IMG/VR virus record: IMGVR_UViG_3300021087_000036
Span: 1-38,025 of that record
DNA length: 38,025 nucleotides
Reading direction: 5' to 3' (one strand)
DNA from: a virus
Both the position numbers and the translations under genes were made by a program. A model generated the notes under the pieces. The model was not told where the DNA came from. It was given only the letters and a program-made list of their open reading frames with translations, and did not search any database. Positions 12,688 through 35,670 of the stretch are shown here, one piece after another (within the stretch, counting starts at the first letter, position 1; every line of letters starts with the position of its first letter).

Positions 12688-13385
12688 TAGTAAAGCATTT
12701 AGAAGTTATAGAGAAGCATTTCAAAAAGTGGTACCCAAAAGAAGGGTGTGGAATAATTGGAGTTGTTAAAGGAAAATCAAAATGGTTTCCTTGCGAAAAT
12801 CTCGCGGAAGAAGAGGAAGACTTTGTAATAAATCCAGATGATTTCAACAGAGCCAATGCAGAAAGCGATATAATAGGAATAGTACATAGTCATGTCAATA
12901 GCAGCCCAAAGGCTAGTTATAATGATAGAAAATTTTGTAATGTTATAGGAATTCCTTATTATATTTTTAGTTATCCTAATATGGAACTAGAAATATTAAA
13001 GCCTAAAAAAGTAGTTAATGAACTAGCGGGTCGAGAGTATGAGTTTGGTGTATTTGATTGTTTAGAGGCAGTACGAGACTTTTATACCCAGAATCTGAAC
13101 ATAGAACTAAGAAGAAGAGACCCTTATTTAGATGATTGGTGGGAAAAAGAAGAAGATTATTTTACGGCTAAACACATTAAAGAATGGGGATTTAGCCCTG
13201 TAAATAATTTAAAAGAAAACGATATTCTCATTTTTAATATGGGAGCAAATATAGGCACACATTGTGGTGTGTACTTATATGATGATATATTTTTTCATCA
13301 CGCAGTAAATAGATTATCTTGTAAAGAAAATCTTTACCCTTTATGGAAGAAGCACTTAACTGGAATATATAGATATGGCACGTAA
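12684..13385 (+). CDS. Tail-tip peptidase pair: JAMM domain plus NlpC/P60 domain (lambda gpK-like)
   Basis: Two enzyme domains lie in 233 residues. The N-terminal JAMM/Mov34 metallopeptidase has Glu20 (in KEGCGIIG) and the zinc motif His68-x-His70-x7-Ser78-x2-Asp81. The C-terminal NlpC/P60 cysteine peptidase has Cys126 in FGVFDCLEAVRDF and His193 in GTHCGVYLY, with a further HHAVN polar motif. Both active sites look complete. In lambda this protein is needed for tail assembly and is thought to process tail components or cut peptidoglycan peptides during entry. It overlaps the L-like gene by four bases and the giant I-J gene by eleven, so it belongs to one translational unit. Confidence 0.88.
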   Translation: MIVKHLEVIEKHFKKWYPKEGCGIIGVVKGKSKWFPCENLAEEEEDFVINPDDFNRANAESDIIGIVHSHVNSSPKASYNDRKFCNVIGIPYYIFSYPNMELEILKPKKVVNELAGREYEFGVFDCLEAVRDFYTQNLNIELRRRDPYLDDWWEKEEDYFTAKHIKEWGFSPVNNLKENDILIFNMGANIGTHCGVYLYDDIFFHHAVNRLSCKENLYPLWKKHLTGIYRYGT

Positions 13386-16300
13386 AATTTACTTAAATGG
13401 CGAAATGGCCAATAAATTTGGAACTGTACACCCTTTTGTGGGGGATACGGTACAAGATGCTGTTCGCCTTTTAAGTGCTAATAATTCAGAGTTTAAGCCT
13501 TATTTAATAAACTGTATGGAAAACGATATTCAGTTTTCTGTAGCAGTACATGGCCAAGAATTAACTGATATTAAAGAATGTTTACTTCCTCTAACAGAGG
13601 GAGATATAATTATTACTCCTATTCCCGCAGGATCAAAATCTGGCGAAGCCAAAATACTTACGGCAATGGCCATTGCTGCACTAATGTTTATACCTGTATT
13701 TGGCCCTACCATGGCACAAATGGCAGTTGGGCCAATGCAGGCACAAAGTCTGTTTGCTCTTTCACAAGCCACTGGAGGTTTAGCAGCTGCTGCAGGCATG
13801 GCAGGTGTAGCTATAGCCGCTAATTTAGCTATTAACGGTATTCAACAAATAATGGCACCTGATCCTTCTGTAGACGCTGAGGAAGAAGAGGGTTATATGT
13901 TAAGCGGGTCTCAGAAGAATGCTGTAGAAGGAGATCCCGTACCTGTATTATATGGAGAATTAAGAGTTCCAGGAACTCCTGTGTCCTTTGAAGTAAGTAA
14001 TACACAATATAAAATGCAAAGCGAATCGGTTACGGCTTCCGGCGGTTTGCAATCAATGATTGCAGCAGCAGGGTTTAGGGATGATCCTAGTCAGTCAGGT
14101 CGGATGAAACTTCATCCAGAAGACTTAGCAACTTTAACAAGTGCTGGGCCTGAATCTGCAACTACTACAATGTATAAAACTCTGAATTCGTTCGGAAAAA
14201 ATCAAGATATATGTGTCACAGATGTAATATCAGAGGGGCCAATATTAGGATTAGTTAATAATAATAATAGTGTACATTTAAATGATGTACCTGCTGTAGA
14301 CCTAGGAAACGCTGGTGTTACTCGCGCCTCAACTGGAGCAAAATTTTACCTTCAACTAAATAGTAGTCAATGTACTTATAAGCCTAATGGCCACGCCGCT
14401 CTACCTCCTTCCGATGGTATTAATGATAGATGGTTAGCTATAAAAGATTATAAAACTCAAGAGAGTGCTTCAGTCGTAACGAGGTATATAGGTGCAGGCT
14501 ATCCGGTAAATACAGTTATAGTTACAACAGATACTGCTTTTTTTCCAACTACCACCGCTGAAAAAAAATCTTGGGTATTTAATGATAATAATAAGCTTCA
14601 AAATGTAGTTACGCATCTATCTATAGGCGGAAACATAACTGATTGGCACATACCTTCTCTAGGCACACTTGTTGGCCCCGCAGGTGATCCAACATCAGTA
14701 GGTATCAGCGCCTTTATATCCCCTACTAGATGTATTTTTCACAGTAAATCTCATAAAATTCCTAAAATTATTGAAAAAAATATTAAGGATGGGGATGACT
14801 TTAAAGTACACGTAGATTACGCCCAAAGTTTTAAAACAATGACGGGAAGCAACACAATTAATCTGAATACCGCCTTTCTAGGTACTACAGGGGACTATGC
14901 GGCTAATATCACCGGAACAGATAGAAATCAAATAGAGACGCATAGAGGCATAGGTAGTTCTATTAAATATGATGGATTTCGTTGTAATTTTAAAACTGGT
15001 CAGCTTGATCAAGAATTCTTCCCCGCGCCTGCAGGTACCGGGATGGGAAATATAGCACTTCCAGGGGGTGTTTCTGGTGAGGCAATTGCTGGCCCTCTAG
15101 ACGGGACTACTGCTAGTGTTAAAACATTTACAGGTACTAATTCTGGGCATTTTGCTCTATCTGATTCGCAAGCTCGAGAAGCGGATGAAATTAGAATACT
15201 TTTCACTTATGGTTCTTTAACGAATACTTCTGCAAAGGGTACAGACCATGATGGAAAAGTTTTTTATAAAATGCGAATTAGATTAAAACATGGTAACGAC
15301 TATGGAAATTGGCAAGATATTCATACCCAAGAAACTCCTTTAAGACATATAGGATTTTCTAGAAGCGCAGTCTCTATAGAAGAAATCTTAGTCTTAAGAG
15401 ATTATGGTACTAACTTTTCTGACTTTCAAGTAGAAATAACACGATTGAGTGAGGTAGATAGAGCGTACTATACTACGTTTAGTAAGCCTTATAACGCTGA
15501 TTATACTAGTGCTACTCCTTGTACTATTGTGAGTTTAAATACTATAATTAAAGAAAATTTATCCTACCCTTATACGGCAATGGCCCAAGTAGGTATAAAT
15601 ACTAAAGCATTTAGAACTGTTCCTAAACGAACTTATCATTTGAAGGGAATGTTAATAAAAGTCCCTTCTAATTATGTAACTAGAGATGAGACCTCTGATA
15701 GTGATGGAGGAGCAAACTATCGACGAATAGATAAAGATACAATACATGCTAGTGAATATCAAAACTGGGATGGGGCTTTCAGAGAAGAATCTGTATATAC
15801 GAATAATCCAGCTTGGGTATTCTATGATATAATAACTAATAATAGATATGGATTAGGCGCTTGGCTAACAGCCACAGACATTGATAAATATGCACTATAT
15901 AGAATTGGCAGATATTGTGATGAAATGGTTCCAGATGGAAAGGGGGGTTTAGAGCCTCGCTTTACTACTAATGTATACTTTCAAAAAGCTACTGATGCCT
16001 ATAAAGTACTAAAAGACTTATCAACAGTATTTAGAGGAATGCTGTACTGGTTAGACGGTAATATATTTCCAATCATGGATGAGCCTAAAAATCCTGTGTA
16101 TAACTTCACCACAGGTAATGTAATTGACGGGCTATTTTCTTATCAATCCACAGGCAGTAAAACTAGAACTAATCAAACTGTAGTCACTTGGATCAATCCA
16201 GAACAAGATTATAAACAAGAAGCGTTACTAGTAGAAGATAAAGAAAATATCATAGAAACAGGTAAAATAATTTCGGAAAATGCTGTTGCTTTCGGAGCAG

Positions 16301-19300
16301 TAACAGAAGGCCAAGCTACAAGATATGGCAGATGGAAAGTATGGACCGCAAAAAATCAAACTGAAATAGTTAGCTTTAAAACTGCCCTTGGAGCAGCATT
16401 TTTAGCCCCTGGCGATGTGGTTAATATACAAGATGCTAATAGGGCGTCTTCACAACTTCAATATAGTGGTAGAGTCTCCTCCGCTAGTACCCCTAGCACC
16501 ACAGTAATCCCTTTAGATAGAGCTGTGTCTTTAAATTCCGCTTCCACATATGAACTAAGTGTACTTATAGAAAAGCCAGGAGTATTTCTAACTCAAAATG
16601 ATTCAGCAACAATTGAGGGCGTAGTCTATAATAAAGGAGATTTAATACTTGGAACATATACTGAAAGTCAAGCTTCAGATATTATTCAAACCGATGGTAG
16701 TAGTGCCCCTATTCTTAGTGGAGGTCTCGAACAGCCTGTAACTACAGCTTGGCAGCCTTATACACGAGTTGAAACTCAAGCAGTTCATGCGAGTTCTATT
16801 GCTGCCAGCCCAACTTCTTCTATAACAGTTCAAGCAGCATTTTCAGAAGAACCTGATAGTCAAACCATTTGGGCACTAAAAGAGGTAAATGCGGCGGGTG
16901 TTGAAGTATCTGGCTCAAAGAAGCCTTATAAAATATTATCTATTTCAGAAGGAAAAAATGAATACGATATAACAGCAGTAGAACATTATAATGACAAATT
17001 TGTAGAAGTAGACGAAGATTTCACACATTCTGTAGGAGATACAGTATATCCATCAATTACCGCTAGTGATACAGTACCTCCTCCAGGTGTTTTTTACGCT
17101 AGTACCCGTAATATTAATGATAGTGGGGAGATAGCTGATGACATTATATTATTTTGGGATGCGCCTACTAATCCAGGAAAGTCTGTCGGCGATGTTGGTT
17201 ATTTATATGAACACGTAAAAGGGTACCAACTAGAGCACGATGGGGCAGTAATAACTTTGCCTAAAACCTCTACTTCTTTTACAGGATTAGATATTCCAGC
17301 AGGTACTTATACTCTTGGGCTAAGAACCCTGAGTACTATAGATTCACCATCTCTTCCTGCTACCGTTACTGTTACTGTGGGGGACACATTCTCTAATCCT
17401 GCCCCAAGATTCGCCGGCATACCTATAGGAGGTATATTATCTCGAGATGTAGATTTGGTTTCTACTACTAGCCCTACTGCTAAAACCTTTAAAATATTAA
17501 ACGCTGATTATAAATTTGCTTCAGCGGGCAGTCCACTTATACTTACTGAACGTAGCGGAGGGGCTGTAACCACTTATCAACAAGATTGTACTAATATAAC
17601 TACTGTTAATTATGCAGGGTTAAATGATTATGATACACAAGTAGCTAGTCATTATATATTCTTTGATGCTAGTGATACAACCGAAACTTTAAAATTAATA
17701 AAGTATCATATAGATTCTAATTTAAATGAAAACTACTTTTATGACGCAGGTACAGGAAGTGGTACAGCTGCTTCTAATTTTAATGCTGCTGGCACGGGTA
17801 CTATAACTCTTGCTGCTAACTCTATAAAAGTAATAGGAGCAAGTACAGCTTTTGAGACAGATTATAATGTTGGAGAAATAATTTATTTTAATAGCACACA
17901 AGCAGCTAGAATTGCTCATATTGCTTCCAATACAGATATACGATTAGATAAAAGTTTCCCTACTGCGATAGCTGCTGGATCTTCTCATTATCCACAAAAG
18001 TTTAAATTTGACGTAAATAAAGATGCAATTATAGCTAATGTTAGAAATAATAATGGAACTTTTACCTTCTATTCAGAAGCAACTATAAACAAGGATTTAA
18101 ATGATAGTCCTAGAGTAGTTATTATATCTGCAGACCCTACTTCATTAAGCTTTGATGGAGAAGATCCGCCTGTTTTGAAGTCAGGACAAGATGACACTAT
18201 AACCCTAACCGTTGATGCCCAAGGATTTCAAAATCCAGAATTTAAAATAACTGGAGCAGGATTTGGTCATACAGATATTAGTCAATCTGCAGAAACTAGT
18301 TTTACTAATAATGGTACTACAACTTATTCAAAAGCTTTATCCGCGATTTCAACTCATAGTGACACTAATTTAGTATTTACTGCAACTGTTAGGGAAACTG
18401 ACGATCCTGAAAATAGCGCAAAACAAGTTGAGTCAACACTTACTGTTTCTTTTCTTAAAGATGGAGAAGACGGCGGAACAGGCGTAACCGGAGACGACGG
18501 AGACGGAGTAGATATTGTATTTAAACGTTCTACTACTGTACTTACAACTGCACCAAGTGCTTCTTCTAGCACCCCTCCTAGTGGCTGGTATACAGATGTA
18601 GCAAATGTTCCTGCTTTATCTAACTCTTTGATGTATTCAAGTGTAGGCTCAAAACTTGCAGGAGCGACTAACTGGATTTGGCAAGTTCCTATTCAAATAG
18701 AAGGCTCAGACGGAACCGATGGAATCTCTATAGCAGAATTAACTATTTATCAGAGATCAAATACTCTTCTTACCTCTAGTCATACACCTTCTAGTTCTAC
18801 ATATAATTTTGGAACTAATACTATATCTAATTTAGGCTCATGGTCTCGAACGATACCTACGGGAAGTTCAACTCCTTTATACGCTTCCGCAGCTGTTGCT
18901 ACTGTGACAGGAGCAACAGGAACTTCTGGAACACTTACTTGGTCCACTCCTGTTCTTAGTATGCAAGATGGTACGGATGGAGATCCGGGGTTAAGAACAA
19001 TACAAGGTTATTTATATCAAGAGAAAACTACTTCTGGTACGCCGACCGCGCCTGGGGGCACTACTTATACATTTAGTACTGGAAAGGTATCTGGATCCAA
19101 TATTAATGATAGTGGCACAACAAATACATGGAAAAATTCTCCAAATACACAAGAAGCAGATTCAACTAATACATACTATACTATTCGATACACTGGGCAA
19201 GAGGCAACTGCAGAAGCGCTAACAATTACTGTATCTTATAGTGCTGCAGTTGAGCATACAAGTTTTTCTGGTGTTGTAACTTTTGTTGACGGAACCGGAC

Positions 19301-21630
19301 TCTTTAAAAAGGATGGTACTAATATAACTACTATTGATGGTGGTGGTATTACAACTGGTATGATAAGAGATAGTGATGCTTTTACCGCAAATGAAGATGG
19401 CACTGATTTTACCACAAATGGTATGGTAATAGACTTAGATTCCGGTAATATAGCCACTGAAGAATTTAAAGTAGTGGGTGGATCTGCTACTTTTAAAGGC
19501 GCGCTGCAAGCAGCTAGCGGTAGTTTTAGTGGAAGTGTAACTGCCAGTTCTGGTGCTATCGGCGGCTGGGCTATTGATACTGGATATATCTATAATGGAA
19601 CTAAGCATACTACTTCTGATTATTCCAGCTCCGGCATAACTTTAAATGGTAGTGGTAATGGTAGTATTCACTCTCCAAACTTTTATATTAATAGTGATGG
19701 AACCGCAGGCTTTAAAGGAACTCTAACTATAGATGGTACTGATTTAACTGATACTAACACTTTTAATGAACATACAACAGCGGCTAATGTGGGGTTGGAG
19801 AACGTAGATAATACTTCTGATGCAACCGTATTAAGTACTGCGGCAACTGCAGCTAATACACAGAATAAAACAGGGGGGTCAGTAGGAGGTTTAACACTTA
19901 CTAGCACTAAAATTTATCAAGGAACGGGCGACTGGGGCAATACTAATACAGGTTTTTATGTTGATAACTCTGGAAACTTTTCTTTACAAGACAAATTAAA
20001 GTGGAATGGCAGTACTCTAACAATTGATGGCGGTGGTACTTTTAGTGGAACTCTCACTGCATCAACATTAGCGAGTATGAACGTCACAGGGGGTGTCTTT
20101 AAAGCAGGAGCTGGCACACAAATCTCTGGCTATCCCGCTGTTATAATCGGACAAGGAAACAGCGGCTATGTCGGAGTTGCAGGAACTGCATTAGGTACTG
20201 CAGGAGTAGCAGGAGCAGGAACCGGCACCAATGGTTATGGCGGCTGGTTTGGACGTGCTAGTTCGGCATGGGGTGGTTTTTCAAATCAAGTACATCTATC
20301 TACTAGTAGTTATTCTATATTGACATATGGTGCTGTTAGAATTGCTGATACCTATACTTTACCAACAGTAGATGGCAGTGCCGATCAAGTTTTAACAACA
20401 GACGGGTCTGGTACTGTTACTTGGGAAGATGGCGGAAGTGGGGGTGGTTCAGGTACTATAACAGGTATTACAGCAGGTACTCATTTAACTGGAGGGGGTA
20501 CTTCAGGTAATGTTACTGTTAGTCATTTAACAACTGCGGGAAATAAACATATACCTACAGGAGGCTCTTCAGGGCAGTTCTTAAAATACAGTTCCTCAGG
20601 AACAGCTGTATGGGATGCAATACCGGGGGGCTTAGCTCTAGGTACTGGTTCGGGAGATGCACATAGAGGAGACCATGGTAGTGCAGCTTATACACATAGT
20701 CAAGCTGCCCACGCACCAAGTAATGCTACAGCAAATACTGGTACTGTTACAAATGTAGCCACAGGAAATGGATTAACAGGCGGACCAATTTCTACTACTG
20801 GTACTATAAGTCACGCTAATACAAGTAATCAGGCGAGTTCAAATAATGCGGGTAGAGTAGGGATTCAGGATATAACGTTAGATGAGTTTGGGCATATAAC
20901 AGGTATTGAAACAGCAACTTTTACTGACACAAATACAACTTATGTAGCAAGTGACTTTTCTCATAATTCTTTAAGCGGTGTTAGTGCCGCAGAACATATA
21001 AACTGGACAAGTTCTGGTGCGGGCACAATTCATTCAAGTAATTATACAAATACAACTTATCTTGGCGGTGCTGGAATGGCACTTAGTGGAATAACATTTA
21101 ATATTGGTGGAGGAACTGGAATAAATGTAGCTGCTGATCAAATTTCTGTTGATATGGGTGATTTTGATACTGATAACTTATCCCAAGGTTCTACTAATAA
21201 ATATTATAGTGATACTTTAGTTAACACTAGACTTGCAGGTTCTATAAGTACCGGAGCTATTGCTTGTAGCAGCACTATTACTGCTGATGGCAATATCACA
21301 GCCTTTAATTCTTCTGATATTGCTTTAAAAGAAGATTTAAATCCCATAAGTAATGCACTTGATAAAGTTATGTCTATTTCTGGATATAACTTTAGTTGGA
21401 AGGATAGTAATATTAAAGAAAGAGGTGGCGAAGACGGATACTTTGTTAGAAAGAAAGATGTAGGTATGGTTGCTCAAGAAATAGAAAAAATTCTTCCCGA
21501 AGCTGTTGCAGACAGGGTAGATGGTACTAAAGGTGTGAGATACGAACTACTAGTTCCACTACTAGTCAATGCAATCAAAGAATTAAAAGAAAAAGTAGAG
21601 GAATTAGAAAATGGCAAATCTTCAAAGTAG
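13375..21630 (+). CDS. Giant tail-tip hub and host-specificity protein: gpI + gpJ fusion with S74 chaperone end
   Basis: This 2751-residue protein joins lambda-type I and J. Residues about 1-215 match gpI: an N-terminal ubiquitin-like part starting ARKIYLNGEMANKFG, AGSKSGEAKILTA, a hydrophobic glycine/alanine segment, then VPVLYGELRVPG. From about 283 (DVISEGPILGLVNN) to about 1220 it follows gpJ, the central hub. A fibronectin-like domain lies near 1236-1337. The rest is a long beta-rich fibre with DGEDGGTGVTGDDGDG near 1696 and many serine/threonine/glycine repeats. It ends in a Peptidase_S74 intramolecular chaperone with Ser2647 and Lys2652 in SSDIALKEDL, then DVGMVAQEIEKILPEAV. It probably trimerises the fibre and cuts itself off before Ser2647, losing about 105 residues. 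Domain calls rest on motif recognition. Receptor binding is inferred. Confidence 0.9.
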   Translation: MARKIYLNGEMANKFGTVHPFVGDTVQDAVRLLSANNSEFKPYLINCMENDIQFSVAVHGQELTDIKECLLPLTEGDIIITPIPAGSKSGEAKILTAMAIAALMFIPVFGPTMAQMAVGPMQAQSLFALSQATGGLAAAAGMAGVAIAANLAINGIQQIMAPDPSVDAEEEEGYMLSGSQKNAVEGDPVPVLYGELRVPGTPVSFEVSNTQYKMQSESVTASGGLQSMIAAAGFRDDPSQSGRMKLHPEDLATLTSAGPESATTTMYKTLNSFGKNQDICVTDVISEGPILGLVNNNNSVHLNDVPAVDLGNAGVTRASTGAKFYLQLNSSQCTYKPNGHAALPPSDGINDRWLAIKDYKTQESASVVTRYIGAGYPVNTVIVTTDTAFFPTTTAEKKSWVFNDNNKLQNVVTHLSIGGNITDWHIPSLGTLVGPAGDPTSVGISAFISPTRCIFHSKSHKIPKIIEKNIKDGDDFKVHVDYAQSFKTMTGSNTINLNTAFLGTTGDYAANITGTDRNQIETHRGIGSSIKYDGFRCNFKTGQLDQEFFPAPAGTGMGNIALPGGVSGEAIAGPLDGTTASVKTFTGTNSGHFALSDSQAREADEIRILFTYGSLTNTSAKGTDHDGKVFYKMRIRLKHGNDYGNWQDIHTQETPLRHIGFSRSAVSIEEILVLRDYGTNFSDFQVEITRLSEVDRAYYTTFSKPYNADYTSATPCTIVSLNTIIKENLSYPYTAMAQVGINTKAFRTVPKRTYHLKGMLIKVPSNYVTRDETSDSDGGANYRRIDKDTIHASEYQNWDGAFREESVYTNNPAWVFYDIITNNRYGLGAWLTATDIDKYALYRIGRYCDEMVPDGKGGLEPRFTTNVYFQKATDAYKVLKDLSTVFRGMLYWLDGNIFPIMDEPKNPVYNFTTGNVIDGLFSYQSTGSKTRTNQTVVTWINPEQDYKQEALLVEDKENIIETGKIISENAVAFGAVTEGQATRYGRWKVWTAKNQTEIVSFKTALGAAFLAPGDVVNIQDANRASSQLQYSGRVSSASTPSTTVIPLDRAVSLNSASTYELSVLIEKPGVFLTQNDSATIEGVVYNKGDLILGTYTESQASDIIQTDGSSAPILSGGLEQPVTTAWQPYTRVETQAVHASSIAASPTSSITVQAAFSEEPDSQTIWALKEVNAAGVEVSGSKKPYKILSISEGKNEYDITAVEHYNDKFVEVDEDFTHSVGDTVYPSITASDTVPPPGVFYASTRNINDSGEIADDIILFWDAPTNPGKSVGDVGYLYEHVKGYQLEHDGAVITLPKTSTSFTGLDIPAGTYTLGLRTLSTIDSPSLPATVTVTVGDTFSNPAPRFAGIPIGGILSRDVDLVSTTSPTAKTFKILNADYKFASAGSPLILTERSGGAVTTYQQDCTNITTVNYAGLNDYDTQVASHYIFFDASDTTETLKLIKYHIDSNLNENYFYDAGTGSGTAASNFNAAGTGTITLAANSIKVIGASTAFETDYNVGEIIYFNSTQAARIAHIASNTDIRLDKSFPTAIAAGSSHYPQKFKFDVNKDAIIANVRNNNGTFTFYSEATINKDLNDSPRVVIISADPTSLSFDGEDPPVLKSGQDDTITLTVDAQGFQNPEFKITGAGFGHTDISQSAETSFTNNGTTTYSKALSAISTHSDTNLVFTATVRETDDPENSAKQVESTLTVSFLKDGEDGGTGVTGDDGDGVDIVFKRSTTVLTTAPSASSSTPPSGWYTDVANVPALSNSLMYSSVGSKLAGATNWIWQVPIQIEGSDGTDGISIAELTIYQRSNTLLTSSHTPSSSTYNFGTNTISNLGSWSRTIPTGSSTPLYASAAVATVTGATGTSGTLTWSTPVLSMQDGTDGDPGLRTIQGYLYQEKTTSGTPTAPGGTTYTFSTGKVSGSNINDSGTTNTWKNSPNTQEADSTNTYYTIRYTGQEATAEALTITVSYSAAVEHTSFSGVVTFVDGTGLFKKDGTNITTIDGGGITTGMIRDSDAFTANEDGTDFTTNGMVIDLDSGNIATEEFKVVGGSATFKGALQAASGSFSGSVTASSGAIGGWAIDTGYIYNGTKHTTSDYSSSGITLNGSGNGSIHSPNFYINSDGTAGFKGTLTIDGTDLTDTNTFNEHTTAANVGLENVDNTSDATVLSTAATAANTQNKTGGSVGGLTLTSTKIYQGTGDWGNTNTGFYVDNSGNFSLQDKLKWNGSTLTIDGGGTFSGTLTASTLASMNVTGGVFKAGAGTQISGYPAVIIGQGNSGYVGVAGTALGTAGVAGAGTGTNGYGGWFGRASSAWGGFSNQVHLSTSSYSILTYGAVRIADTYTLPTVDGSADQVLTTDGSGTVTWEDGGSGGGSGTITGITAGTHLTGGGTSGNVTVSHLTTAGNKHIPTGGSSGQFLKYSSSGTAVWDAIPGGLALGTGSGDAHRGDHGSAAYTHSQAAHAPSNATANTGTVTNVATGNGLTGGPISTTGTISHANTSNQASSNNAGRVGIQDITLDEFGHITGIETATFTDTNTTYVASDFSHNSLSGVSAAEHINWTSSGAGTIHSSNYTNTTYLGGAGMALSGITFNIGGGTGINVAADQISVDMGDFDTDNLSQGSTNKYYSDTLVNTRLAGSISTGAIACSSTITADGNITAFNSSDIALKEDLNPISNALDKVMSISGYNFSWKDSNIKERGGEDGYFVRKKDVGMVAQEIEKILPEAVADRVDGTKGVRYELLVPLLVNAIKELKEKVEELENGKSSK

Positions 21631-24890: not shown

Positions 24891-26673
24891 TGTTATACAA
24901 ATTAGAAGAGATACTGCAGCTAATTGGACCAGTGCTAATCCTACTTTAGCCAGCGGCGAATTAGGATTTGAAACTGATACTGATAAAATTAAAATAGGAG
25001 ATGCGTCTACAGCTTGGACTAGTCTTGGTTATGTTATAAATGCAAGCACATATGCTCTTACAACTGGAACTACGTTTACAGGTGCAGTAGTTGGAACAAC
25101 TTTTGCGGGCGCCTTAACTGGTGATGTAACTGGTGATGTAACTGGTGATGTAAGTGGCTCTTCAGGATCGACTACGGGTAACGCAGCAACAGCAACAGCA
25201 TTAGCAACGGCAAGAACTATTGGTGGTGTATCATTTAACGGCACAGCTAATATCGACTTACCAGGAGTTAACGCAGCAGGCACACAAGACACATCAGGCA
25301 CCGCAGCAACAGCAACACTTGCTACTACAGCTACAGTTACAGATAGCGCAGTAAATACAAATTTTCCTGTAGTATTTCATAATGAGTCTAATGGGCTCTT
25401 AGATGATACAGGTGCATTACGATATAATCCAAGTACAGGAGAATTATTAGTTCCTAATCTTACAGTTGCAGGTACATCAACTGTAGTTGATACTGTTACA
25501 ATGAACGCTCAAAATGCTATAATATTTGAAGGCGCTACAGCGGATGCACACGAAACTACACTTAGTGTTGTAGACCCAACAGCAGATCATACTCAATATT
25601 TAATTAATCAAGGTGGATATATTCCAGTCTTGGCGGCCTCTACAACTACAGCTATCACTTCAACGCCTGCTGAGTTAAATAAATTAGATGCATTAAGTAG
25701 AGGATCAATACTTTATGGTAATTCATCTGGAGCAACTACAGTACTTCCACCGGGCTCAAATGAACAAGTTCTTATTAGTGATGGTACAGATATAGCATGG
25801 GCAAATAATACAGGCGCGGGAGCCGAAACACTGGGCGCTTTAAACGATGTTAGTACTTCAGGTGTTGCAAATGGAAAAATTTTAAAATACAACGGTACTT
25901 CTTGGGTAGTATCAGATGATACTGGTGGATCTGAAACACTAGCAGGTTTAACAGATGTTAGTACTTCAGGTGTTGCAAATGGTAAAATTTTAAAATACAA
26001 CGGTACTTCTTGGGTAGTATCAGATGATACTGGTGGTATAGATCATGTTGTAGAAGATCTAACACCACAACTTGCTGGCGACTTAGATGTTCAAGACAAC
26101 GAATTAACAACAAGTACAAGTAATGGCAATATAAAAGTTACTCCAAATGGATCAGGAGTTTTTGAGGTCAAAGGTGCTGGCGGTGCTGATGGTACAGTGC
26201 AACTCAATTGTTCATCTAATACTCATGGTGTAAAGATAAAATCCCCACCACATAGTGCGTCAGCTAATTATACATTAATATTACCAAATACTGCAGGTAC
26301 TGCAGATCAAATATTACAAACAAATGGTACTGGTACATTAAGTTGGGCTGATGCAACTAGTGGAGATGCTACACAAACTTTGACTGATGCAGCTACAGTT
26401 GCTTGGAATATAGCTAATGGAAATATAGGTTTGTGGCAAATAGATGGCAATAGAACACTGCAAGCTCCAACAAATGCGGTAGTGGGTACTTCTGTATTAA
26501 GAATTACTCAGTATGGTGCAGGTAATAGACTTGTTACTTGGCCTGCTAACTTTAAGTGGAGTGCAGGATCCGCACCAGTATTATCTACAGCAGCTAATGC
26601 GATAGACATTTTATCATTTTTTTATGACGGTACTAATTTTTATGGTGCATTAGTATCTAGAGGTGCTTCATAA
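24883..26673 (+). CDS. Tail fibre protein with N-terminal adaptor domain (3 of 3)
   Basis: The start is a GTG at 24883, preceded by GGAGG; it overlaps the preceding stop. The 596-residue protein opens with DVIQIRRDTAANWTSANPTL and GELGFETDTDKIKIGD, the third and most classical form of the adaptor. A short GDVT tandem follows, then NAATATALATARTIGGVSFN and GTANIDLPGVNAAGT, the common tail-fibre collar sequence. Residues about 322-385 contain an almost exact tandem copy of a 36-residue unit (LNDVSTSGVANGKILKYNG...). The C-terminal 100 residues (TLTDAATVAWNIANGNIGLW through NAIDILSFFYDGTNFYG) form a tip domain common in phage fibres. It probably forms a long trimeric side fibre. The stop overlaps the next ATG. 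Confidence 0.8.
   Translation: MADVIQIRRDTAANWTSANPTLASGELGFETDTDKIKIGDASTAWTSLGYVINASTYALTTGTTFTGAVVGTTFAGALTGDVTGDVTGDVSGSSGSTTGNAATATALATARTIGGVSFNGTANIDLPGVNAAGTQDTSGTAATATLATTATVTDSAVNTNFPVVFHNESNGLLDDTGALRYNPSTGELLVPNLTVAGTSTVVDTVTMNAQNAIIFEGATADAHETTLSVVDPTADHTQYLINQGGYIPVLAASTTTAITSTPAELNKLDALSRGSILYGNSSGATTVLPPGSNEQVLISDGTDIAWANNTGAGAETLGALNDVSTSGVANGKILKYNGTSWVVSDDTGGSETLAGLTDVSTSGVANGKILKYNGTSWVVSDDTGGIDHVVEDLTPQLAGDLDVQDNELTTSTSNGNIKVTPNGSGVFEVKGAGGADGTVQLNCSSNTHGVKIKSPPHSASANYTLILPNTAGTADQILQTNGTGTLSWADATSGDATQTLTDAATVAWNIANGNIGLWQIDGNRTLQAPTNAVVGTSVLRITQYGAGNRLVTWPANFKWSAGSAPVLSTAANAIDILSFFYDGTNFYGALVSRGAS
25846..26036 (+). repeat. Tandem duplication, 108-base period, in tail fibre gene
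   Basis: The stretch starting GATGTTAGTACTTCAGGTG at 25846 recurs at 25954, and the match runs to GATACTGGTGG in both copies (25928 and 26036), with almost no base differences. The period of 108 bases keeps the frame and duplicates 36 residues. Near identity at silent positions implies a recent duplication or gene conversion. Confidence 0.9.
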
Positions 26674-27680
26674 TGATGGCATTTACAGGGGTACCTTTAA
26701 TAGTGTTAACCCCTGGTACAGGAAACGACTATACCATTTATACAGCTGCGGGTTCCCCTCCAAATGCTGTGCGCTGTGAGGCGATATTCGATTCTGACCT
26801 CGGGTCAACCAACCTTAACCAACCGGCTATTAGAACCGGTTCTACATGGCGTGCGGGTAGCGACATCTTGATTAGACAGAACGCTACATGTACAGCTTAT
26901 GCTGTAGCCGGTACTGCAGGTTCTACCGGTAGTACCGGTAGTGAGGGCAATTCTCCTTATGTCATGCCCCCAGGTGTTGGAGGCGCTAATGGTGCGGGTG
27001 GTTCTACCGGTGGTACCGGTGGTCCGGGCACTCAAGGTAGTGCGGGCACCAATGGTGCTAGTGCATCGGGCAATTATGGCACTCCCGGAGGTCCAGGTGG
27101 TACTGGAGGTAATGGAGGAACGGGTGGCCAAGGGGGTATAGCATTTACCGCTGATAATAATAGCGGTGTCGTAACTACTGTTTATAATTCTGGTACTATA
27201 CAAAGCCTAGGAGGTGCTGCAGGTGCTGCAGGTCCCGGAGGTCCAGGTGGACTTGGAGGAATGGGATTGGGCGGCGGAGGCGGCGGAGGCGGAGGCGGCG
27301 GCGGAGGCGGCGGTTCCAATATGCAAGGTGGTGGTCCCGGCTCTTATGGCGGAACTTCACCGTTAGGAGGACCGGCGGCCTATCCATGCCCCGGCTCAAA
27401 TGGTGGTGGCGGAGGCGCTGGTGCTGGAGGTACTGGAGGAATGGGAGCCAGTGGTGGTACTGGTGGTATGGGCCTAGCAGGTCAAGATGGTGCCCTAGGT
27501 TATACTGGAGGAGCGAGAGCTTGGTTTGGATATCCTGGCTCAAATACTCCAAGACAAAATAGTGGTCCTACGGGTCCAGCAGGTAATGCAGGTTCAGCAG
27601 GTCCTACGGGTGCAGCCATTACTGGAGACGCAAATATTACATGGCGACAAACTGGTACACGAACTGGCACTATTACTTAG
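26673..27680 (+). CDS. Glycine-rich tail adhesin with collagen-like segments
   Basis: Of 335 residues, the region from about 80 to 325 is dominated by glycine. It includes 15 glycine codons in a row (27270-27314). Glycine-rich motifs alternate with short variable segments (PYVMPPG, ADNNSGVVTTVYNSGT, AYPCPG, ARAWFGYPGSNTPRQN). This is the layout of gp38-type adhesins of T-even-like phages, whose polyglycine II helix sandwich displays host-binding loops. Stretches such as GPTGPAGNAGSAGPTGA are also collagen-like Gly-X-Y. The N-terminal 75 residues form a non-repetitive beta domain (VPLIVLTPGTGNDYTIYTAA). It follows the fibre gene with a TAATG overlap, like an adhesin loaded on the fibre tip. 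Receptor binding is inferred. Confidence 0.75.
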   Translation: MMAFTGVPLIVLTPGTGNDYTIYTAAGSPPNAVRCEAIFDSDLGSTNLNQPAIRTGSTWRAGSDILIRQNATCTAYAVAGTAGSTGSTGSEGNSPYVMPPGVGGANGAGGSTGGTGGPGTQGSAGTNGASASGNYGTPGGPGGTGGNGGTGGQGGIAFTADNNSGVVTTVYNSGTIQSLGGAAGAAGPGGPGGLGGMGLGGGGGGGGGGGGGGGSNMQGGGPGSYGGTSPLGGPAAYPCPGSNGGGGGAGAGGTGGMGASGGTGGMGLAGQDGALGYTGGARAWFGYPGSNTPRQNSGPTGPAGNAGSAGPTGAAITGDANITWRQTGTRTGTIT

Positions 27681-27688
27681 GAGATAAC

Positions 27689-28051
27689 ATGAATTTCAAA
27701 TACAAAATTATAGAAGTACACCCAGAGCAGCACAGCATCGTTGTTCGATTCTATACTGACAAAGTATCGGTGGAACATCTTTGCCTTAAAGACGAAGATG
27801 GGAACCCTAGACTCAATGAGGATGGCGAGATTGCGCGTTGTAAAACCGATTTTAATATAAACCTGTGGGAAGTCCCAGCCATTACTGGAGATGCTTTGCA
27901 TGCAAGAATAGTGGAGTGCTGCCCATCTGTCCTGTTAGCTTTAGAAGAAAAAATTCTTGACTCAGAACTAGATACATCACTAACAGGAATGACATCTCTA
28001 ATAGGAGAAGAAGTTGAAGGGGAATCAACTATTCCATCATCAGAATTATGA
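27689..28051 (+). CDS. Hypothetical protein following the glycine-rich adhesin
   Basis: I choose the ATG at 27689 because AGGAG lies just upstream (spacing six to seven bases) and because the earlier possible ATG at 27641 is inside the adhesin gene. This gives 120 residues. The protein starts with FKYKIIEVHPEQHSIVVRFY and has TDFNINLWEVPAITGDALHARIVE, then an acidic tail ending PSSEL. The pattern of a short beta start, 'IDLW..P..G..L...I', and a helical second half resembles small proteins found beside tail-fibre genes in aquatic phages, which may be fibre assembly factors. I do not recognise a named family. Its last bases overlap the next ATG (ATGA). Confidence 0.62.
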   Translation: MNFKYKIIEVHPEQHSIVVRFYTDKVSVEHLCLKDEDGNPRLNEDGEIARCKTDFNINLWEVPAITGDALHARIVECCPSVLLALEEKILDSELDTSLTGMTSLIGEEVEGESTIPSSEL

Positions 28052-28452
28052 ACAATCCAGAAATAACTTTAGGATGTGTATCTAACTTGTGGAGCCGAAT
28101 GATGTTTTTCAGGTCTGTTGGAGACATAGAGTACGGACATACTCATCAGTTCGATCACATGACCCTTCTTGCGGCTGGAGCACTTCAAGTTACTGTAAAC
28201 GGACAAGCTACTGAATTTAAAGCACCCCATATGATACTTATCCGTCAAGGCAAGAGTCACGAGTTGGTTGCCTTAGAAGACAATACAGTTGCATTTTGTA
28301 TTCATGCAATGCGTACTGGTGATCGGGTAGAGGATATTGTTGATCCTGCTAGCATCCCTCGTGGTATGAACTTGGCGGATCCTTCTTATATTCCTCCAGG
28401 CGTGTCTATAAAACCATTTAGCTATGTGGATACAATAAATGAATCTAACTAA
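28048..28452 (+). CDS. Cupin-fold protein
   Basis: The 134-residue protein shows the small double-stranded beta-helix pattern of single-domain cupins. The first metal-type motif is GHTHQFDHMTLLAAGALQVT and the second is APHMILIRQGKSHELVALED. His in GHTHQFDH and His in KSHELV are plausible metal ligands, although the second motif is shorter than usual. It lies between a small unknown protein and the 2-oxoglutarate oxygenase and overlaps the latter by 14 bases, so the two are made together. It may bind a metal or small molecule, or act as a structural partner in modification of tail proteins. The fold call is reasonable; the role is unknown. Confidence 0.65.
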   Translation: MNNPEITLGCVSNLWSRMMFFRSVGDIEYGHTHQFDHMTLLAAGALQVTVNGQATEFKAPHMILIRQGKSHELVALEDNTVAFCIHAMRTGDRVEDIVDPASIPRGMNLADPSYIPPGVSIKPFSYVDTINESN

Positions 28453-29023
28453 TAATTATTATTATTTTACCAGAGCAATAGACAGAAAAACTTGTAATAA
28501 AATATTGAAGGTAGGAGGTAAAGAAGAAGAAGCAGTAGTGGGTCATGGCGGACAAGCTACGAAGATAGACAAAAAAGTTAGAATAAGTAAAGTTGCTTGG
28601 ACAAGTGATCAATGGGTATATGATTTAATCTGGCCCTATATGCTAGAAGCAAATGATCTGGCTGGTTGGAGATACGACATTACAGGTGCCGAATCCGTAC
28701 AAATTGGCAAGTATGAAGAAGGAGGTTTTTATGACTTCCACCATGATGGCAAAAGCGACAATTTTAGTGTATACAATACACCAGAAAATAAAATCAAACA
28801 CGGAAATGTTAGAAAACTGAGTATGGGCATCATACTAAATGACGATTATGAAGGGGGCAACTTTCAGTTTAAGACAATTAGACAAGAAATATATACTCCA
28901 GAGTTTAATGGAGTAGGAACTGTTATAGTGTTTCCTTCTTTTATGATGCACAGAGTTGAACAAGTAACTAAGGGCACCCGATGTTCACTTGTTACATGGT
29001 TTGTAGGGCCACCGTTTAGATAA
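28439..29023 (+). CDS. 2-oxoglutarate/Fe(II)-dependent oxygenase (prolyl 4-hydroxylase-like)
   Basis: The 194-residue protein has the complete iron triad of this superfamily: His101-x-Asp103 in YDFHHDGKSD and His171 in FPSFMMHRVEQVTKGTR. Arg181, ten residues after the distal histidine, is placed to bind 2-oxoglutarate. Surrounding phrases (VQIGKYEEGGFYDFHHD, LSMGIILNDDYEGGNFQF, CSLVTWFVGPPF) match prolyl hydroxylase and PKHD-type enzymes. The expected reaction is hydroxylation of a protein or small substrate with oxygen and 2-oxoglutarate, giving succinate and carbon dioxide. It overlaps the cupin gene by 14 bases and lies 1.4 kb after a collagen-like glycine-rich adhesin. Tail protein is therefore a possible substrate, which is inference only. 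Phage-encoded members are known, mostly without a proven target. Confidence 0.88.
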   Translation: MNLTNNYYYFTRAIDRKTCNKILKVGGKEEEAVVGHGGQATKIDKKVRISKVAWTSDQWVYDLIWPYMLEANDLAGWRYDITGAESVQIGKYEEGGFYDFHHDGKSDNFSVYNTPENKIKHGNVRKLSMGIILNDDYEGGNFQFKTIRQEIYTPEFNGVGTVIVFPSFMMHRVEQVTKGTRCSLVTWFVGPPFR

Positions 29024-29895: not shown

Positions 29896-31914
29896 ATGAG
29901 CACAACTATTGATTTAGGAAAACTACGATTTAATTGGGTTGGAGAGTGGGCGTCAAACACCCAGTATGAATCCAATGACTTGGTGCGTTACGGTGGTGAC
30001 GTATATGTTTACATTTATGCACTAAAAACAAGCGGTAATCTAACCACAAACGCTACCTACTGGGCATTAGTTCAGGAAGGGCTATCGTGGAAAGGTGAAT
30101 ACGCTGCAGCAACTGCATACAAGGCTCACGAAGTGGTACACCATGCTAATAACGCATATGTATGTATCCTTACTGAACCATCTGCAGGTAATGCACCTCC
30201 AAATGCTACCTACTGGCAGCTACTCGCTACAGGTGTTAAGTTTGAAGGCGCATACGACAATTCAACGGTATATCAAGTAGATGATATCGTTTATTATGGT
30301 GCCAATACTTATATTTGTGTTCAAAATTCAGCGGGAGGCAATCTTCCCACAAACGCAACATATTGGAATACATTCTCACATGGTATTCAATGGGAAGGAG
30401 TTTATAATAATTCCTCCTCTTATCAGAAAGATGATGTAGTCACTTATGGTGCTAATGTATATATTTCAAAAATGGACAACGTGGGTCAATTACCCACAGA
30501 CACAGCTAAATGGGATGTGCTCACAAGTGGTATTAAGTATACTGCTGCTTGGGATACTTCTAAAGCCGATTATAAAATCAATGACGTAGCTACTTTTGGT
30601 GGCAACGCATATATTGCCACAGCTGATAATCCTACTCAAGGTAGTGATCCATCTGTCAATACTGCACATTGGGACGTATTGTCTTCTGGTATTGATTGGA
30701 TGGGTGACTGGGCTATTGGTACTGCTTATCAGAAAGATGATGTTGTAGGTTATGGTGGTAATACCTACATCGCTCGTATCACAAATACAGGCGACAACCC
30801 TGCAACAGTTACAGCTTCTTGGGAGCGTATGACTTCCGGTATTGAATGGATAGGTGTTTGGGATGTTGCCGTTAATTATCAGAAAGATGATCTTGTGTCT
30901 TATGGAGCTACTACCTATATTGCATTAGTAACTAATGTAGGTGATAATCCTGGAACGGTTACAGCTTCTTGGCAAGAATTGGCCAAAGGCGTTCAGTTTC
31001 TTGCTGCTTGGGCTGGTGGTACTGCTTATGTCAAAGGTGACATTGTAACTTATGGAGCGAACTCCTATGTCGCACTAGCAAATACTACAGGTGATAATCC
31101 TGTAACTGTTACAGCTAAATGGCAACCATTTTCTGTAGGCATAGAGTTTATAGGCGTTTGGGCTACTGGTACTGCTTATACTGTAAATGACATTGTAACT
31201 TATGGTGGTAACAGCTATATTGCTAAAGTAGATACTACAGGGGACATTCCCAACATAGTTACCGCTTCTTGGGAGCGCATGGCTGCGGGGTTTAGGCATA
31301 TAGGGAATTGGGCTACTTCTACTTCCTATCTACTGGATGACATCGTAACTTATGGTGGTCAAACCTATAGGACATTAGTATCACATTCTTCCGGAGTGTT
31401 TGCAACAGACTTAGCTGCATCTAAATGGGCGAAGTTTTCTGGCGGGATGGACTGGAAAGGCGCTTGGCTAACAGCCACAGTTTACAAGATTAATGATATT
31501 GTGAATTCAGGCGGAGCGACGTATGTAGCTACTGCGGATCACACCTCAACTGCATTTGGTTCAGACTCAGCACATTGGGATAATTTTGCAAATGCGGGTA
31601 CGGACGTAGCAACAACAATCACCACACATGGAGATTTCTTAATCCGTGATGCAACAGGGCCAGCAAGACTGGGTCCTGGTGCAAATGGTCAAATTTTACA
31701 ATCAGGCGGAGCTAACGCTAACCCGAAGTATTTGGCACAAGGTACTGACGGCCAAATTTTACAATCAGGAGGAGCAGCCGCTGATCCGAAGTATCTGGCA
31801 CAAGGTACTACAGGACAACTTTTAACGTCGGCAGGCGCTGCCGCAGATCCCACTTGGGAAACTCCAGTAGAAGCTGCTGGATTTACCATAGCTGGCTACT
31901 TAATGTACTCATAG
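29896..31914 (+). CDS. Tail fibre built of eleven carbohydrate-binding-like repeats
   Basis: Residues about 14-565 of this 672-residue protein consist of eleven consecutive units of about 50 residues. Each follows W-x-G-x-W/Y, x-Y-x-x-x-D-x-V-x-Y-G-x-x-x-Y and ends with a short proline/asparagine loop and x-Y/H-W. Aromatic spacing of this kind matches the chitin-binding type 3 / CBM5-12 fold, found in chitinases and in fibres of aquatic phages. After the repeats come three short modules (ANGQILQSGGANANPKYLAQ and two relatives), ending AGYLMYS. The gene starts at promoter B. It probably forms an elongated fibre that contacts surface glycans repeatedly. Sugar type is unknown. Confidence 0.82.
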   Translation: MSTTIDLGKLRFNWVGEWASNTQYESNDLVRYGGDVYVYIYALKTSGNLTTNATYWALVQEGLSWKGEYAAATAYKAHEVVHHANNAYVCILTEPSAGNAPPNATYWQLLATGVKFEGAYDNSTVYQVDDIVYYGANTYICVQNSAGGNLPTNATYWNTFSHGIQWEGVYNNSSSYQKDDVVTYGANVYISKMDNVGQLPTDTAKWDVLTSGIKYTAAWDTSKADYKINDVATFGGNAYIATADNPTQGSDPSVNTAHWDVLSSGIDWMGDWAIGTAYQKDDVVGYGGNTYIARITNTGDNPATVTASWERMTSGIEWIGVWDVAVNYQKDDLVSYGATTYIALVTNVGDNPGTVTASWQELAKGVQFLAAWAGGTAYVKGDIVTYGANSYVALANTTGDNPVTVTAKWQPFSVGIEFIGVWATGTAYTVNDIVTYGGNSYIAKVDTTGDIPNIVTASWERMAAGFRHIGNWATSTSYLLDDIVTYGGQTYRTLVSHSSGVFATDLAASKWAKFSGGMDWKGAWLTATVYKINDIVNSGGATYVATADHTSTAFGSDSAHWDNFANAGTDVATTITTHGDFLIRDATGPARLGPGANGQILQSGGANANPKYLAQGTDGQILQSGGAAADPKYLAQGTTGQLLTSAGAAADPTWETPVEAAGFTIAGYLMYS

Positions 31915-34456: not shown

Positions 34457-35293
34457 ATGGCTTTAACAGCAAAAACAGGAGGAGCAGCAGCAGCAGCATC
34501 AAGCGGTGGAGGTGCAGCCGTAGGTCAAGCACTATACAATCTTGGGGGTTTATCATATTGGACATGTCCAACAGGGGTGACTTCAGTTTGCGTAGTATGT
34601 ATTGGCGGCGGTGAAGCAATGCACGGAGCCGTATGGGCAAATGATGGCGGTCGAGGTGGAGGCTTAGGCTGGAAGAATAATATTCCAGTTACTGCAGGTA
34701 CTGTATATGATGTAATGGTTGGTAGAGCCGGTGGTGCTGGCACTGACCCACACAATACAGCATCAACTAATAATTATCATGGTGGTGATTCGTATTTTAT
34801 AGATACTTCCACAGTATGCGGTCAAGGCGGTGGTAAAGGCTCGGGATTCACTGGTGACGGTGGTGGTAACGGCGGCACTAGTCCAAGCTGGGGCTGGGGT
34901 TGCGGTGCTGGAGGTTATACCGGTGATGGCGGAACTGGAGCTACAGATCCAGGAGCTGGTGGTGGCGGTGCTAGTGGTAGTCCTTACAGTTCTACACACG
35001 GTGGTGCTTCTGGTGGCGGTACTGGTCCTTGGGGACAAGGCCCTTCAGGGACAGCAGCAAACTATGCTGGCGGAGAAGGTGGATCTGGAGGAGAAAGTGG
35101 GTTGTGTGGTGAAAATAATTGGTGGGGTAAAGGCGTAAAACAGCGCAAAGGTGGAGATTATGGTGGTGGTGCTGGTGGTGCTGGCACTACTGAATGGAGT
35201 GGAGGCGGGCATCATCCTGGCGGAAGAGGTTGTGTTCGTATTATATGGGGTGAAGGACGAAAGTTCCCAGATACTAAGACAGGAGATATGTAA
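34457..35293 (+). CDS. Glycine-rich tail adhesin, second type
   Basis: The 278-residue protein has an N-terminal alanine/glycine linker. It continues with a beta domain (LYNLGGLSYWTCPTGVTSVC, VVCIGGGEAMHGAVW, VPVTAGTVYDVMVG-like strands), the pattern of glycine-rich adhesins that start 'WtvP.GvtsV.vv.vGgGg'. About residues 95-260 are glycine-rich motifs with variable loops holding Trp, Tyr and Cys. It ends GGRGCVRIIWGEGRKFPDTK; 'G.VRIIWG.GR.FP.T' is a conserved closing motif of phage fibre proteins in aquatic environments. The presence of six or more cysteines is unusual in a fibre tip. It precedes an assembly chaperone with a TAATG overlap, consistent with a fibre-tip protein plus its helper. 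Confidence 0.75.
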   Translation: MALTAKTGGAAAAASSGGGAAVGQALYNLGGLSYWTCPTGVTSVCVVCIGGGEAMHGAVWANDGGRGGGLGWKNNIPVTAGTVYDVMVGRAGGAGTDPHNTASTNNYHGGDSYFIDTSTVCGQGGGKGSGFTGDGGGNGGTSPSWGWGCGAGGYTGDGGTGATDPGAGGGGASGSPYSSTHGGASGGGTGPWGQGPSGTAANYAGGEGGSGGESGLCGENNWWGKGVKQRKGGDYGGGAGGAGTTEWSGGGHHPGGRGCVRIIWGEGRKFPDTKTGDM

Positions 35294-35670
35294 TGACAGT
35301 ATATTATAATTTAGTAGATGAGGATGGTAATGTAGTCGAAGGCCCTATTTCTTATCCAGACGTGAAACGGAAAACTGGTCTAAAAGATCAAGTCGGTTTA
35401 GACGAACTTGGATGGAAAGAGCACTTCCCCCCACTGATTGCCCCAGTATGGACAGAGGAGCAGATTGCAACGTTTATTAGAAGTACTCGTGATGCTATCT
35501 TAGCTCACTGCGATTGGACACAGACTGCGGATAGTCCTTTATCAGATGCCAAAAAAGCCGAATGGGCTACTTACAGACAGAAACTTAGAGATATGCCTGC
35601 AGATAACGATGATGTTGAAACCGAAGGGTTTGAACCAGATGATATAACGTTTCCTACTGAACCTTCATAG
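35293..35670 (+). CDS. Tail fibre assembly chaperone-like protein
   Basis: The 125-residue protein ends the rightward structural operon. Its C-terminal half has the Phage_tail_APC pattern: a helix with IRSTRDAILAHCDWTQTADS followed by PLSDAKKAEWATYRQKLRDM and a proline. The N-terminal part (YYNLVDEDGNVVEGPISYPD) is a short beta module typical of tail fibre assembly proteins. Such proteins help fibres or adhesins fold or attach and are usually encoded directly after the fibre they serve, here the glycine-rich adhesin. The acidic end (NDDVETEGFEPDDITF) looks flexible. The start overlaps the adhesin's stop. Confidence 0.82.
   Translation: MTVYYNLVDEDGNVVEGPISYPDVKRKTGLKDQVGLDELGWKEHFPPLIAPVWTEEQIATFIRSTRDAILAHCDWTQTADSPLSDAKKAEWATYRQKLRDMPADNDDVETEGFEPDDITFPTEPS

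Follow-up and report, generated by a model that had tools for sequence, protein, structure and literature searches.

Does a tailed phage hydroxylate the prolines of its own tail adhesin? The question is raised by the window, a stretch of 38,025 bases that makes up the whole of IMG/VR virus record IMGVR_UViG_3300021087_000036. A group of tail genes is followed by four plus-strand genes that overlap or nearly do so. They encode a Gly-rich, partly collagen-like tail adhesin of 335 residues (26673–27680; assigned from its open reading frame, composition and motif sharing), a 120-residue protein in the slot of a tail-fibre-assembly protein (27689–28051; its frame opens at 27641), a small cupin of 134 residues (28048–28452) and a 194-residue oxygenase of the 2-oxoglutarate (2OG)/Fe(II) type (28439–29023). 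The original prediction had placed these genes correctly, including the overlap of cupin and oxygenase and the position of the oxygenase three genes on from the adhesin. It had also proposed that the enzyme modifies the adhesin. Our analysis favors this answer: the oxygenase is probably a phage protein prolyl hydroxylase acting on the Gly-rich tail protein encoded just upstream.

Sequence and fold of the oxygenase

The oxygenase is a member of Pfam family PF13640 (45.9 bits against a cut-off of 27, E 1.2e-11) and matches PHROG 61, ‘2OG-Fe(II) oxygenase’ (E 1.3e-32). The iron triad H101, D103, and H171 is invariant in 31 sequences. R181, which binds 2OG, is at least 90% conserved in these sequences and invariant in closer sets. 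These are the residues that the original prediction had named. An AlphaFold2 model built with 27 sequences has a predicted local distance difference test (pLDDT) score of 88 and a predicted template modeling (pTM) score of 0.86. Its best fold match is the prolyl 4-hydroxylase (P4H) of Pseudomonas putida with EF-Tu (PDB ID: 4iw3; Z 18.2, 2.9 Å, 171 residues). The viral collagen P4H of PBCV-1 (5c5t; Z 17.9, 21% identity over 163 aligned residues), an algal P4H with (Ser-Pro)5 (3gze; Z 17.6), and PHD2 (Z 17.4) also match, and these protein prolyl hydroxylases span nearly the full length of the model. In a profile search, the nearest sequences are PKHD/PiuC-type hydroxylases, with bacterial P4Hs also found; a single-sequence search returns prolyl 3-hydroxylase 1 (E 1.7e-4). 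Because both structure and sequence match prolyl hydroxylases, the description ‘prolyl-hydroxylase-like’ is fair for the fold. The substrate is not deducible from the predicted fold, and a shared fold alone is no proof of function.

Conserved linkage to Gly-rich tail proteins

We collected non-redundant loci carrying an oxygenase of the window type with at least 1 kb of upstream sequence. A Gly-rich protein is encoded within four genes upstream in 57 of 70 such loci, but in only 6 of 45 control loci with a 2OG oxygenase of another type (p=3e-13). The linkage recurs in many marine phages, and comparable layouts are present in two cultured pelagiphages, HTVC033P and HTVC023P, and in the cyanophages S-RSM4 and S-SM1. 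The closest replicate of the window, locus L115, has the same order, with an adhesin 61%, a small protein 47%, and an oxygenase 65% identical to those of the window. Its cupin slot holds a sulfotransferase-like gene (PF03567, below the cut-off), followed by a second 2OG oxygenase. The window oxygenase groups with those of L115, L192, and other Gly-associated enzymes. Co-occurrence in related phages had been set in advance as a check on the prediction, and it is found.

Proline content and the diproline motif

Many of the Gly-rich proteins at loci collected by way of the enzyme have an insertion, GNTPPVSPPQGN, in place of the GTSGQGN of others. The form GNTPPVSPPQGN[DNP]GG recurs in the Gly-rich domains of loci L205–L271, HTVC033P, and HTVC023P. 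Since these first loci had been picked via the enzyme, oxygenase-blind sampling was used. Contigs were caught by DNA patterns for VAGGGGG (sample 1) and ITVGAGG (sample 2, new loci only), and the label, any 2OG oxygenase within six genes on the same strand, was set before sample 2. An oxygenase was nearby in 16 of 21 sample 1 loci with the diproline motif versus 5 of 38 without it (p=2e-6), with proline contents of the Gly-rich region of 6.47 versus 2.93%. Sample 2 replicated this result (20/23 with the motif versus 10/47 without, p=2e-7; proline 5.93 versus 2.64%, p=6e-8). Proline is the most shifted of the 20 residues in both samples, and its effect persists among contigs of low guanine–cytosine (GC) content and among contigs with the common ‘MAHFA’ gene.

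Five motif-positive loci apparently lacked the enzyme. Read gene by gene, three of them encode a window-type enzyme on the opposite strand, and in two the sequence stops too early. The labels were then refined to cover both strands, the window-type enzyme only, and a distance of 8 kb; this choice followed the exceptions, when the first pass had already replicated. With the refined labels, the window-type enzyme is present in 31 of 32 diproline (PPVSPPQG) loci versus 16 of 81 others (p=7e-15), with proline at 6.73 versus 2.59%. It accompanies the Ser-for-Pro variant PSTSPSQG in 2 of 8 cases. Phylogenetic regression on the tree of Gly-rich domains gives an effect of +2.55 points (p=6e-6, or p=1e-4 with GC as a covariate). 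Where the only 2OG oxygenases are of other types, proline is at 3.8% (n=7), versus 6.5% with the window type (p=0.006).

The contrast is also seen within single genomes. In HTVC023P, four Gly-rich proteins with the diproline motif are encoded upstream of the enzyme (proline 5.8–7.7%), and a fifth is encoded downstream, with 1.6% proline and no motif. In the window, a second Gly-rich protein (34457–35293) is encoded about 5.4 kb off and is likewise proline-poor (3.3%). These contrasts speak against base composition or lineage as the sole cause. The link between enzyme and proline is strongly supported at the level of the family and covers the window adhesin by extension.

The window adhesin and its orthologue

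The orthologous adhesin of L115 is plainly collagen-like, judged from its sequence. It has Gly-X-Y runs of 19, 20, and 16 triplets, and a run of 20 was absent from 2000 shuffles. There are 76 tiled triplets versus 29 ± 7 in shuffled sequences, with 12 prolines in the Y and 14 in the X position.

The window adhesin has 46 tiled triplets, against 16 ± 6 in shuffled sequences of equal composition, so that its Gly-X-Y content exceeds mere composition. Many of these triplets are GG-rich, and the longest run is 10 (p=0.016). Seventeen of its 23 prolines lie in the Gly-rich region and seven within Gly-X-Y runs (three X, four Y). The region has 7.5% proline; as much or more is found at 3.8% of the loci without the enzyme and at 32% of those with it. 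The Gly-Pro-Thr and Gly-Pro-Ala segments to which the original prediction drew attention are present at residues 298–315. Its term ‘collagen-like’ suits the L115 orthologue clearly and the window adhesin only partly; the latter appears equally compatible with a GG-rich sandwich or a triple helix.

The N-terminal 75 residues or so are shared with L115 only, and the C-terminal motif AITGDANITW..TGTRTGTIT is common to other phage Gly-rich adhesins. Residues 92–101 read GNSPYVMPPG, which is not the exact PPVSPPQG motif. The adhesin has no Pfam match up to E 0.1, so it does not fall into PF21722 (Gly_rich_2), and a sequence search found no match between it and solved gp38 sequences. A relative sharing the C-terminal motif matches solved gp38 weakly (E 0.53). 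A tblastn search of the phage collection gave no significant match to the adhesin.

Proposed modification and alternatives

Late in infection, with Fe(II), O2, and 2OG, the oxygenase would add hydroxyl groups to prolines of the Gly-rich tail protein, the product of the gene just upstream, soon after its synthesis. The reaction would take place before or during assembly of the tail tip, and the gain could be the stability of the Gly-rich fold or contact with the receptor. From the observed fold, catalytic residues, conserved linkage, and co-variation with proline, we infer that proline is the modified residue, that the modified form is present in the virion, and that it serves stability or receptor contact. 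The case for hydroxylation of the phage's own adhesin is carried by the fold, the linkage, the co-variation with proline and the diproline motif, and L115. The pairing of cupin and adhesin adds nothing to it.

Several points weigh against proline hydroxylation. The nearest sequence profile is that of PKHD/PiuC, and 2OG would be bound by an Arg, a feature of PHD and PKHD enzymes; collagen P4Hs have Lys in this role. No Gly-rich neighbor is visible in 13 of the 70 window-type loci, and two enzyme-positive loci, L472 and L494, have proline-poor Gly-rich proteins. With the first, uncorrected labels, phylogenetic generalized least squares regression gave only +1.1 points (p=0.02); the larger effect depends on labels refined after the exceptions were seen, and any tree built from low-complexity domains carries uncertainty. 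The strongest statistics do not apply directly to the window adhesin, because it lacks PPVSPPQG and belongs to a different Gly-rich family.

The enzyme might instead modify Asp, Asn, Lys, or His of the Gly-rich tail protein or of the assembly protein, with proline enrichment marking a structural type of Gly-rich domain that accompanies the module. 2OG oxygenases of this fold hydroxylate several residue types, and other 2OG types and a protein of the Asp/Asn hydroxylase family (PF05118) occur in the same modules. This is also the sole alternative that predicts co-variation with the tail protein. However, it gives no reason why proline should stand out, whereas proline is the most shifted residue in two samples, the fold neighbors are prolyl hydroxylases, and the Ser-for-Pro variant of the motif mostly occurs without the enzyme. 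We consider it unlikely.

We give little credence to a second explanation, that the enzyme targets a host protein or another phage protein and is merely located in the tail module. The top fold match, the P. putida enzyme, does act on EF-Tu, and tail-fibre regions harbor mobile gene cassettes. Yet a target of this kind would predict neither the proline content of the neighboring protein nor its diproline motif. An auxiliary metabolic gene with a small-molecule, DNA-repair, or 2OG-balancing role, as proposed for cyanophages and pelagiphages in PMC3037559, PMC11288001, and PMC9599517, is improbable given the position behind Gly-rich tail genes, the co-variation with tail sequence, and the protein-hydroxylase fold.

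Proline hydroxylation may be one step of several. We tentatively suggest, as a possibility that we would not yet favor, that marine tailed phages have a finishing line for receptor-binding proteins, encoded behind the adhesin. Up to several 2OG oxygenases (the prolyl hydroxylase, a PF13759 type, and a type named ‘ferrochelatase’), together with a metal cupin and in some cases a sulfotransferase, would add hydroxyproline and further groups, thereby altering host recognition.

The cupin and the 120-residue protein

The cupin scores weakly against Pfam (Cupin_2, E 9e-4). The assignment nevertheless stands on profile and fold: 5fpx is matched by profile in the PDB (E 1.2e-5), Foldseek gives E 1.9e-6, and the model resembles KdgF and TM1459. 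Residues H31, H33, H37, and H71 are invariant, and the protein has the double-stranded beta-helix with conserved His ligands. The spacing of these residues is presumably that of the four-histidine site of TM1459. The title of a TM1459-like mutant entry among the fold matches names H52 and H58. A four-histidine metal site is probable from these sequence features.

Relatives of about 60% identity were surveyed in around 74 non-redundant loci, and in most of these they adjoin tail tips. Two settings recur. In one, a Gly-rich adhesin is followed by a small protein and the cupin, with or without an oxygenase. In the other, a collar-type tail tip is followed by small proteins, the cupin, and then at least two 2OG oxygenases. 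The cupin thus tracks tail tips regardless of Gly-richness or of the presence of an oxygenase, and in part independently. The pair of cupin and adhesin is no evidence for hydroxylation, because the cupin also stands beside Gly-rich tips without the enzyme and beside tips that are not Gly-rich. We had initially doubted the Gly-rich link itself, as cupin loci with 2OG oxygenases mostly lie by collar-type tips that are not Gly-rich. This doubt was dropped because the pattern holds for the cupin and another oxygenase subtype, not for the window-type enzyme. Among cupin-associated adhesins, proline content with and without oxygenases (3.8 versus 2.6%, p=0.12) shows a trend only. A tblastn search of the phage collection gave no significant match to the cupin, and a distant cupin of Vibrio phage VPMS1 (E 0.02) yielded no useful information. 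As a weak inference, the cupin probably belongs, like the other 2OG oxygenases beside such adhesins in relatives, to a further set of proteins that tailor the tail tip or bind metal.

The 120-residue protein is assigned to its slot by position. Single-protein searches returned no relatives of it, and its lone relative surfaced via L115. It aligns weakly with other small assembly proteins (hhalign probability 6.8). The suggestion that this protein and the cupin are substrate carriers found no support.

Comparison with known systems

A viral prolyl hydroxylase is already known from a chlorella virus. The PBCV-1 enzyme vCPH is virus-encoded and has the same fold as the window oxygenase, and 4-hydroxyproline in viral proteins has been reported (Eriksson 1999, as cited in PMC9301287). 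In contrast to the present case, it comes from an algal virus, not a tailed phage, and has no tail adhesin partner. The P. putida P4H also has a protein substrate but is chromosomal, and its target is a translation factor. PiuC/YbiX of the PKHD type (3dkq, 9ghl), the nearest enzymes by sequence profile, share the HxD...H...R pattern; unlike the window oxygenase they are cellular (PiuC being, by name, an iron uptake factor), and about 100 residues align by profile. The clusters of 2OG-Fe(II) oxygenases and ‘ferrochelatases’ in cyanophages and pelagiphages, HTVC023P included, contain the same enzyme families. In the portions of PMC3037559 and PMC9599517 available, they are cast as auxiliary metabolic genes and are not tied to Gly-rich tail proteins or prolines. 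The Gly-rich tip adhesins of phages (T-even gp38, PF21722) are likewise Gly-rich tail tips; PF21722 matches the protein of a relative and the second Gly-rich protein of the window, whereas the window adhesin matches neither gp38 nor PF21722 significantly.

What is new here is the tie to phage Gly-rich tail proteins and their prolines. Our literature search, which covered few subscription journals, found no paper linking phage 2OG enzymes to Gly-rich tail proteins and no experimental report of hydroxyproline or prolyl hydroxylation in phage tails. 2OG oxygenases are abundant in cyanophages and pelagiphages, where their function has been guessed to be DNA repair or metabolism. A survey of virus-associated prolyl 4-hydroxylase states that its viral use ‘remains cryptic’ (PMC9301287). 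The link described here points to a particular substrate, to the PPVSPPQG insertion as a candidate site, and to cultured phages, and so makes the question directly testable. If prolyl hydroxylation occurs, receptor-binding proteins predicted from sequence would be chemically incomplete, which bears on host recognition and on the production of recombinant adhesins. Such a modification would also be at odds with PMC3368898, which states that neither bacteria nor viruses possess prolyl hydroxylases that act on their own collagen-like proteins.

Other genes at tail tips

Sulfotransferase-family genes lie between the adhesin and the prolyl-hydroxylase-like gene in L115 (9105–9668, weak PF03567) and L192 (3081–3869, PF13469, E 1.8e-15); L192 also carries an Asp/Asn hydroxylase (PF05118). 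In L126 (3762–7661), five different 2OG-oxygenase-like genes and a cupin surround a single collar-type tail tip within 4 kb. The ‘ferrochelatase’ family (PHROG 2954 and 3531; L120:4701–5285 and relatives; HTVC033P gp58 and HTVC023P gp67) has an HxD...H pattern, and its genes lie grouped with those of 2OG oxygenases at tail tips. Some records call it a 2OG-Fe(II) oxygenase, and the name ‘ferrochelatase’ looks wrong for this phage family. A ‘MAHFAKL’ protein of 143–165 residues recurs between the Gly-rich protein and the oxygenase in L205–L271 (for example, L213:2392–3363). It is followed there by a protein of 167–171 residues that has no family assigned and ends in an oxygenase-like FPS pattern.

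Elsewhere in the window, a tail protein of 2751 residues (13375–21630) has an end that resembles an S74-type intramolecular chaperone (ALKEDLNPISNALDKV...GMVAQEIEKILPEAV). A tail fibre (29896–31914) contains eight CBM_5_12 carbohydrate-binding repeats (E 1.6e-39). The second Gly-rich tail protein matches PF21722 with E 4.9e-8, and directly after it a protein of 125 residues (35293–35670) has the look of a tail assembly chaperone.

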